Shown here: piece after piece, positions 55,654 to 57,323 of the stretch
Position numbering within the stretch: the stretch's first letter is position 1
Layout of the letters: every line of letters starts with the position of its first letter
Position numbers and translations under genes: made by a program
Notes under the pieces: generated by a model
What the model was told of the DNA's origin: nothing
The model's database searches: none
What the model saw: only the letters and a program-made list of their open reading frames with translations
Assembly: GCA_017512095.1 (NCBI GenBank)
Contig: JAFWHC010000001.1
Coordinates: 1 to 64,000, forward strand
DNA: 64,000 nucleotides
Source: Candidatus Saccharimonadota bacterium
Lineage (GTDB): Bacteria > Patescibacteriota > Saccharimonadia > Saccharimonadales > Saccharimonadaceae
Direction of reading: 5' to 3'

Positions 55654-55685
55654 GAGGTTATTATAGACGATTTTTGGGACATTGA

Positions 55686-56213
55686 AAACCCCCGCTGGAT
55701 TGCGGGGGCTAACTGAATAGGAGATAGCCATGAAGTTCACATTGTAAAAATGGAAGGCCTTCCATGGAGATTGGGTACTTTTGGAGTGTTTTGTCGCGAC
55801 AAAGTTGTTGATGGTTGGTAACTCGGGTTCTAGAAGACGGTAGGTGATGATACGCTTTTTTGATGGCGGCCCAAGCGCGCAATGGGTCCACCTTTAACTT
55901 GGCGGCGCACAGAACGTTCCGCGAGGGGCAAGGGAACCAATAGGGAAAGGTATGTTTCGCCGCACGGTCAAAGCGACATCTAGATTTACGGCGAAGAGAT
56001 ACCGCCAGCCTCTAGGACGTTGCACATAGCGGTCCTGATAGATTTTCCGGGATCGTCCGGAAGCAGAGACGTAAACTTCAACTATGATGACGCCAAGCTA
56101 AGTGTATTTTGATTTGGATTAGCAAATCATGACGGTTTTAGTAGCCCAATGGACTTCCTCCTCCTAACTTCAGATATTTAAAGGACTACCGAGAACCCTC
56201 CTTTCTCCGTTGA
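55686..56213 (-). ncRNA. candidate structured RNA of about 530 nt
   Basis: A consensus promoter at 56221-56249 and an intrinsic terminator at 55686-55712 (CCCCCGC, loop AATCCA, GCGGGGG, TTTT) bracket a segment with no credible gene. The femAB gene downstream has its own promoter, so the transcript is not needed as its leader. Local stems include GAGAA...TTCTC, GTAGTCC...GGGCTAC and GGCG...CGCC. RNase P RNA was considered: GGAGGAAGTCCAT can pair with ATGGCTATCTCC with a bulged U as in helix P4, but other conserved RNase P blocks were not found. Confidence 0.6.
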
Positions 56214-56220
56214 TAGGTTG

Positions 56221-56249
56221 ATTCTATCATGTTGTTTTAGAGGTGTCAA
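56221..56249 (-). promoter_or_regulatory. promoter of the 530-nt RNA
   Basis: Minus strand: TTGACA (56244-56249), 17-bp spacer, TAGAAT (56221-56226). Confidence 0.8.
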
Positions 56250-56273: not shown

Positions 56274-57323
56274 TTATTGGATTGCGGAGCGGGGAGAGAT
56301 GTCGAGTTTATAGGGGTCAGTAGGCTTAACGCCGGATTCGATTTCGTATTTAGCGGCGATGGCGACCATGGCGGCGTTGTCGCCGGAAAACTTAGGCTCT
56401 GGGAAGAAGACGTTTTTAGCGTTTGCGGCTTTTCTTAAAGCTTTATTTGCCGATACACCACCGGCGAAGACGATAGACTTAACGTCGGGGTAGTTTTTGT
56501 AGGCAGTTTGGAGTTTTTCTAGGAGGATGTCGATGGCGGTTTTTTGGAAGCTGGCGGCGAAGTCGGAGATTTGTTCAGGCTTGAGCAAGTTTTTTAAGTC
56601 GTGGGAGGGGTAGTCGAGACCCACGCCACATTCTTTTTGGACGGTGCGGAGGACGGCGGTTTTAAGGCCTGAGAAAGAGAAGTCGAGGGGGTTTTCGGTC
56701 TTTGGGTGGGGGAAGGCGTATTTTTTAGGGTTGCCGTGCTCGGCGGCTGCGGCGATGGAGGGGCCACCAGGGTAGGGGAGACCGAGGATTTTGGCGATTT
56801 TGTCGAAACATTCACCGACGGCGTCGTCCAAGGTTGTGCCGATGATTTTGAAGTCGTTGTGGCGGGTCATGCGGATGATTTGGGTGTGGCCGCCGGAAAT
56901 TACGAGAGCTAAAAGAGGGAACTCTGGAGTGTGTTCGGTTTCAAGCCAGTTGCTATAGATATGACTTTTGAGGTGATGAATTGGGTAGAGGGGCTTGTTG
57001 TGTAAAATTGCGAGCGTGCGGGCAGTGAGGGTGCCGATGAGGAGACTGCCTAGGAGACCAGGGGTGTGGGTGACGGCGATGGCGTCGATTTTGGACCAGT
57101 CGTTCTCATCGTCTTTGGTTTTTAATTTGGCGTCCGAGAAGGCTTGGTCGATGACGGGGAGGATGGTTTCGAGGTGGTTTCTGGCTGCAACTTCGGGGAT
57201 GACGCCGCCGTAGGCCTTAAAGATGTCGATTTGGGAGACGACGACGTTCGAGAGGAGTTCATCGTCTTTTAGAATTGCACAAGCTGTCTCATCACAAGAG
57301 GATTCTATTGCTAGAATAATCAT
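56274..57323 (-). CDS. tsaD: tRNA t6A threonylcarbamoyltransferase TsaD
   Basis: 349 residues. ILAIESSCDETACAIL at the start, the metal site HHLKSHIYSNWLE (as H-x-x-x-H), LALVISGGHTQIIRM, DDAVGECFDKIAKILGLPYPGG, and VFAGGVSANKALR are the Kae1/TsaD motifs. It transfers threonylcarbamoyl to A37 of tRNA with TsaB and TsaE, which are encoded at 35.1-36.0 kb. A minus-strand TATAAT (57330-57335) ends 6 nt before the ATG. Confidence 0.96.
   Translation of the reverse strand: MIILAIESSCDETACAILKDDELLSNVVVSQIDIFKAYGGVIPEVAARNHLETILPVIDQAFSDAKLKTKDDENDWSKIDAIAVTHTPGLLGSLLIGTLTARTLAILHNKPLYPIHHLKSHIYSNWLETEHTPEFPLLALVISGGHTQIIRMTRHNDFKIIGTTLDDAVGECFDKIAKILGLPYPGGPSIAAAAEHGNPKKYAFPHPKTENPLDFSFSGLKTAVLRTVQKECGVGLDYPSHDLKNLLKPEQISDFAASFQKTAIDILLEKLQTAYKNYPDVKSIVFAGGVSANKALRKAANAKNVFFPEPKFSGDNAAMVAIAAKYEIESGVKPTDPYKLDISPRSAIQ

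Follow-up and report, generated by a model that had tools for sequence, protein, structure and literature searches.

A narrowly distributed, structured candidate non-coding RNA gene between tsaD and femAB in Saccharibacteria

We analysed the first 64,000 nucleotides (nt) of contig JAFWHC010000001.1 (assembly GCA_017512095.1, Candidatus Saccharimonadota bacterium), hereafter the window, and focused on a minus-strand unit of about 530 nt without a gene that is flanked by tsaD (56274-57323) and femAB. Pfam matches confirm the identities of TsaD and FemAB. A preliminary description of the locus had reported a consensus promoter and an intrinsic terminator around more than 500 gene-free bases between these two genes; its coordinates and main observation hold, with a near-consensus promoter at 56249-56221 (11 of 12 consensus matches) and a GC hairpin followed by a T-run at 55708-55684. 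The unit is very probably a separately transcribed, structured gene for a non-coding RNA, and its best reading is a new, lineage-restricted large non-coding RNA. Its features, all on the minus strand, include two runs resembling a Shine-Dalgarno (SD) sequence and a possible short open reading frame (ORF), and are listed here from the 5' to the 3' end:

56221..56249, minus strand: sigma-70-type promoter TTGACA-17-TAGAAT with an extended -10 TG, seen in the sequence and kept in four homologues
55684..56215, minus strand: the RNA, predicted from the sequence and its homologues, with the start placed from the -10 box (+/- 3 nt) and the end at the terminator
56189..56209, minus strand: 5' hairpin H1 (CGGAGAA AGGAGGG TTCTCGG) with the SD-like AAGGAGG in its loop
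56161..56173, minus strand: 5' strand of helix P1, CUGAAGUUAGGAG, overlapping the second SD-like run
56157..56165, minus strand: second SD-like run (SD2), AGGAGGAGG, seen in the sequence
56138..56149, minus strand: putative mini-ORF UUG-GGC-UAC-UAA, whose start and stop persist in each of the six species
56091..56099, minus strand: 5' strand of the long-range helix H3, AGCUUGGCG
55905..55911, minus strand: conserved UGUGCKC preceding the 3' strand of H3
55896..55904, minus strand: 3' strand of H3, CGCCAAGUU
55865..55892, minus strand: hairpin H4, GGUGG-A-CC...GG-CCGCC, with a bulged A
55750..55765, minus strand: palindromic hairpin H6, AUGGAAGGCCUUCCAU, 16 nt
55713..55723, minus strand: 3' strand of P1, CUCCUAUUCAG
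55684..55708, minus strand: intrinsic terminator CCCCCGCAATCCAGCGGGGG-TTTTC, a GC hairpin followed by TTTTC, seen in the sequence and its homologues

The signals at both ends are conserved. TTGACA, the 17-nt spacer and TGCTAAAAT are kept in all four full-length homologues, whose promoters read TTGACA-17-TAAAAT with the TG, and a hairpin with a T-run closes the unit in every homologue. The region contains three promoter-like sites compared with 1.0 +/- 1.1 in shuffled sequences. The hairpin at 55708-55684 was overlooked by our terminator scan because the scan demands five T in eight.

Full-length homologues occur in four further species of the genus (labelled G002, G126, G165 and G194), all four of them Candidatus Saccharibacteria assemblies, and a short one occurs in G059. 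The RNA is 538 nt long here, 577, 588, 585 and 708 nt in the other full-length carriers and 290 nt in G059. The whole sequence gave one partial match among 100 relatives, the 5' 116 nt retrieved G002 and G126, and R1, a model built from 5' domain sequences, added G194 (E 4e-23), with no other convincing match among 174 genomes of the genus and 393 of the order. R1 matches with E above 0.004 (L074, L075, L082, L085, L127) fall in unrelated genes or leaders and were discarded. Scanning 84,980 species genomes with a pattern returned the same four assemblies plus two chance matches; the sources of the assemblies are sheep jejunum, water buffalo rumen and, for one, unstated. The poorly spaced pattern AGGAGGNNAAGTCCATTG retrieved G165 and two chance sites only.

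The element occupies the same position in all carriers and lies directly downstream of tsaD in G002, G126 and G165, while most of approximately 100 relatives have no spacer after tsaD. A tree built from 31 TsaD sequences places the six carriers on a single branch (support 0.77), in which this genome groups with its sister G059 (0.97) and G002 groups with G194 and G126 (0.92). The RNA is therefore vertically inherited next to tsaD and narrow in distribution, being confined to one clade of Saccharibacteria from rumen and gut. In the 5' domain, 82 nt align to G002 with 84% identity and 85 nt to G126 with 79%, compared with a DNA identity of tsaD of 70-73% and of 44-48% at its third codon positions (G002, G126, G194). 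Beyond the 5' domain only short conserved blocks remain.

Helices were first spotted by eye and then tested without anchoring, using RNAalifold on six unanchored MAFFT alignments of four or five sequences and column shuffles that preserve gaps and conservation. The unanchored consensus folds had z-scores of -2.8 to -5.8 relative to the shuffles, and P1, H3, H4, H6 and the terminator were part of the consensus in the two runs for which structures were printed. An anchored run (z -10) was set aside, its anchors having been picked by pairing, and the middle part of the MAFFT DNA alignment is misaligned. When each species' own helix strands were compared with strands swapped between species (120 permutations), the cognate score was reached by 3/120 permutations for P1, 2/120 for H3, 4/120 for H4 and 4/120 for the terminator. 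P1 joins the two ends of the RNA, pairing 5' AUAGUUAGGAG with CUCCUAACUAU-like 3' strands just before the terminator, and is rebuilt with new sequence in the short RNA of G059 (UUCUUUAG/CUAAAGAA). H3 (CUUGGCG/CGCCAAG) changes to CUUAGCG/CGCUAAG in G194 and CUCGAAG/CUUCGAG in G165, and H4 (GGUGG-A-CC..GG-CCACC) to GGUAG-A-CU..AG-CUACC in G126 and AGGUC...GACCU in G165. In the homologous spacers, for which the preliminary description had proposed a covariance analysis, a conserved fold is thus backed by compensating changes in P1, H3, H4 and the terminator. H1 has moderate support (18/120); in G165 it has another stem sequence that can pair (CUUAGGGA/UUUCUAAG). Two further helices, P1b (CAUUGGG/CCCAAUG) and P2 (GGUAGUCC/GGGCUACU), were dropped, as own-species pairs did not score above swapped ones (60/120 and 74/120 permutations, respectively).

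H6 reads AUGGAAGGUCUUCCAU in G002, AUGGAAGAUCUUUCAU in G126 and GAGAAACAUGUUUCUC in G165. Its tetraloops in five species are GGCC, GGUC, GAUC, GGCC and CAUG, and each is self-complementary (GGUC via G-U pairs), a property that a lone hairpin does not need. A rough estimate for the chance occurrence of these loop changes, made after seeing them, is 0.001-0.004. The strand-swap test gave 12/120 for H6, with ties from two identical sequences.

Two strong SD-like runs lie in the 5' part, AAGGAGG in the H1 loop and SD2 in the 5' strand of P1. SD2 is invariant in three homologues and reads AAGGAGGCG in G165 and AGAGGAGG in G059. P1 pairs it with the 3' end in six of six species (duplex energies of -10.9 to -17.5 kcal/mol), and this pairing is favoured in single-molecule folds only of G194, G126 (partly) and G059. 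The mini-ORF starts 7-9 nt from SD2 and varies among carriers, with a GUG start in G194, a UGA stop in G165 and UUG-CCU-UAA in G059. By our count, a start or stop would survive roughly 2/9 of random substitutions, so that two in a row have a probability of about 0.05, which is suggestive only. TGGGCTA(C/T)TAA, a word belonging to the putative mini-ORF, is found again in a spacer of G031 (L125) and in a small unit of G002 (the second on L126) as 12-nt exact matches in otherwise unlike units, with a chance of about 0.03-0.07 each. Such strong runs are unusual in the window, where only two of 43 large ORFs have a 6-nt SD (first-ATG starts, approximate). Many large genes of the window lack an SD and have a box resembling TATAAT 6-10 nt upstream of their first ATG, an arrangement that suggests widespread leaderless transcripts. 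Matches to GGATCACCTCCTT in four genomes, obtained in a search for the anti-SD, are not 16S, and the six carrier assemblies contain no 16S.

Known RNA families and coding sequences were searched for across the unit. Infernal cmscan against Rfam 15, the check named in the preliminary description, found no family at the gathering score in the window (including OLE, ROOL, GOLLD, 6S and signal recognition particle (SRP) RNA); the best sub-threshold matches are confined to the terminator hairpin, and the homologues likewise lack a match at threshold. The earlier failure to recognise tmRNA, SRP RNA or 6S RNA is borne out, with no match to these or to RNase P RNA in the region even at E 10. No ORF of more than 60 amino acids (aa) lies entirely within the unit, and ORFs of 60 and 43 aa on the RNA strand have neither a Pfam match nor a counterpart among homologues. 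Peptide similarity between homologues comes only from DNA-conserved blocks and shows up in every frame of either strand, so the conserved coding potential that the preliminary description named as a possible refutation did not appear.

Several alternatives were weighed against this background. The preliminary description had left a choice between a strongly diverged RNase P RNA and a new large RNA class. The word GGAGGAAGUCC recalls the CR-I sequence found around P4. A helix that resembles P4 and contains a bulged U (AG-U-CCAU/AUGGCU) can indeed be drawn, as was then pointed out, in the window sequence only; its 3' strand (AUGGCU) is not kept in the homologues. The diverged-RNase-P option falls because the genome's standard type-A RNase P RNA (RF00010) sits at G000:C5:124415-124764, above the cut-off with 244 bits across the full model (1-367). 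RF00010 and its relatives give no match here at E 10, no CR-I to CR-V core was matched, the two RNAs have nothing else in common, and we give this option next to no credence. The choice of a new large RNA class stands, in view of the absence of an Rfam match, the homologues in five related species, the shared fold and the lack of conserved coding. The unit resembles tmRNA in size class and in the possible short reading frame; tmRNA was rejected on the lack of a model match, the missing tRNA-like end and the true copy (RF00023) at G000:C5:127869-128227 (79 bits, above cut-off). CsrA binds GGA in hairpin loops, and the RNA has several GGA, one of them within a hairpin loop, as a sponge for this protein would; with CsrA above cut-off in none of the six carrier assemblies, within their completeness of 92-98%, we regard a CsrA sponge as highly implausible and rejected it. 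An origin from a phage or plasmid was dismissed on the lack of a match to the RNA in phage and plasmid collections and viral contigs. A messenger for a short, fast-evolving protein with a long 3' untranslated region (UTR) could account for the 60- and 43-aa ORFs and would agree with the SD runs and short ORFs in promoter-to-terminator units after tsaD in other members of the genus. It is very unlikely, as homologues share no ORF outside the DNA-conserved blocks, Pfam gives no match and helix changes compensate; a protein-coding reading was rejected on the missing Pfam match and conserved ORF. The scarcity of such spacers in the genus, the fast divergence of the middle parts and folding energies close to those of shuffled sequences would fit a decayed gene or a neutral spacer whose promoter and terminator are remnants. 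We assign this option only a slight probability: conservation of the 5' domain far exceeds that of tsaD third codon positions, and promoter, terminator and compensated helices persist in species whose neutral sites are almost saturated.

The strongest rival is a regulated mini-gene, in which ribosomes would bind at SD2, read UUG-GGC-UAC-UAA as Met-Gly-Tyr and then terminate or dissociate, while the 3' end would mask SD2 through P1, making the RNA a ribosome or tRNA trap. Short bar minigenes of phage lambda act as traps of either kind. All six species have a strong SD, a UUG or GUG 7-9 nt on and, two or three codons later, a stop; two start or stop substitutions keep function (UUG to GUG, UAA to UGA), G126 keeps the ORF length despite a broken P2 helix over it, and SD2 is covered by P1 in every species, a type of masking by 3' UTR pairing that is proven for icaR (PMC3868564). 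The changes are few, however, and the statistics weak; the conservation of GAAGUCCAUUGGG could serve structure or protein binding, the peptide itself varies (Gly-Tyr, Gly-His, Pro), and H3, H4 and H6 are left unexplained. We therefore regard the mini-gene as unlikely, if still the strongest competitor of a structured RNA acting in trans.

Our preferred explanation, to which we give roughly an even chance, is a clade-restricted structured RNA that acts in trans, is dimeric and contacts the 30S subunit. Comparison among carriers establishes the promoter, the terminator, the 5' domain and a predicted fold in which the P1-joined ends enclose H3, H4 and H6; from these we infer the function. The RNA would act in trans as a stable molecule, with P1 tying its ends together and hiding SD2. 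H6 could pair with H6 of a second molecule via its self-complementary loop and form a dimer, and AAGGAGG in the H1 loop could let the 30S subunit bind, as STAB-SD does for cry3A mRNA, which would protect the RNA or let it act on translation. Dimerisation is a tentative proposal and ribosome contact an equally tentative one, each somewhat short of an even chance. Several observations weigh against the preferred explanation. The six species belong to one clade only and yield small covariation counts, the single-sequence complementarity of P1 and H3 is mostly within the range of shuffles (p 0.009 to 0.6), and when the sequences are folded singly, H6 as a monomer hairpin comes out with low probability in three of the five. 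The richness in local stems noted in the preliminary description is only weakly borne out: the minimum free energy of this sequence has a z of -2.8 with the terminator, in keeping with it, and of -1.5 without. Without the terminator the five RNAs are not unusually stable (z -1.5, 0.15, -0.95, -1.3, -2.2), and this modest stability is unlike what would be expected for a very ornate RNA.

Downstream, femAB comes directly after the RNA in G126, G165, G194 and G059, and in G002 it comes after two further small units. The preliminary description had given femAB a promoter of its own, and a promoter-like TTTTCA-17-TATAAT is present at 55688-55660. The longest femAB ORF begins with GTG 55740, within the terminator region of the RNA; judged by the homologues, ATG 55653 is most likely the start. 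Short ORF-less promoter-to-terminator units lie between tsaD and femAB in G002 (L126 ~5750-5535 and 5510-5330, minus strand) and G126 (L034 ~3400-3160, minus strand), and the one in G126 has CACCUUGAAAA and a long stem in common with the first of the two in G002. The spot between tsaD and femAB may collect small RNA genes. Promoter-to-terminator spacers of 400-650 nt directly 3' of tsaD also occur in further species of the genus, G031 (L125), G136 (L120), G024 (L163) and G036 (L061), where no sequence similarity to the RNA described here could be detected; SD runs and short ORFs are present in some of them, including an AGGAG-8-AUG-UAG start-stop in G036. L123, L125 and L053 share a unit with TTGACTTRGC..CCCGCTYAYGTTAAAATGA followed by AATTATCC and GTCAATGCTAATGC, which in L123 and L125 lies upstream of a purE-like gene and seems to be a further small RNA gene.

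Saccharibacteria live as ultra-small episymbionts, and their genomes are reduced. That selection has maintained an RNA gene of 530 nt within about 625 kb of DNA is unexpected and points to a genuine function. Dimerisation, if true, would bring another lineage into the small group of bacterial RNAs for which covariation supports RNA-RNA assembly, and ribosome binding, if true, would mean that a genome with apparently few strong SDs has an RNA in contact with ribosomes. The locus also shows how narrow a large RNA family can be, escaping both Rfam and single-sequence searches. A bolder version, in which a new class of RNA would self-assemble through a switching palindromic loop, dock on the 30S subunit through a loop-displayed SD and gate a three-codon frame with its 3' end, as an RNA-only ribosome regulator in an ultra-small, mostly leaderless genome, seems to us quite improbable. 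We know of no RNA that combines an SD in a loop, an SD closed by the 3' end and a palindrome-switching loop within one genus.

Large orphan RNAs are already known as a kind from bacteria, and no known family matches this RNA. In the icaR mRNA of Staphylococcus aureus, pairing of the 3' UTR masks the SD (PMC3868564). The new RNA has the same arrangement, a long RNA whose 3' end is complementary to an SD run near the 5' end in all homologues; icaR encodes a repressor protein, whereas the new RNA has at most a possible three-codon ORF and contains further conserved internal helices. STAB-SD is a 30S-bound 5' stabiliser of cry3A mRNA (PMC4113751), and the strong SD near the 5' end without a suitably spaced start codon (AAAGGAGG, H1 loop) is similar; here the SD-like run is part of a hairpin loop in a non-coding RNA and 30S binding is a prediction. 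OLE, ROOL and GOLLD are large bacterial RNAs that form homo-oligomers according to a cryo-electron microscopy study (PMC12286853). The new RNA differs from them in lacking an Rfam match to any of the three, in being far less stable and less elaborate, and in being known from six species of one genus and absent from the phage and plasmid collections. It shares with them a length of several hundred nt, a non-coding nature, covarying long-range helices and a little-understood function. In OLE, the switch of the L9.3 loop from GGCC to GAUC or AGCU has been reported as covariation evidence for a homodimer contact (PMC12286853), and H6 likewise has an inner loop tetranucleotide that changes as a palindrome, alternating between forms such as GGCC and GAUC.
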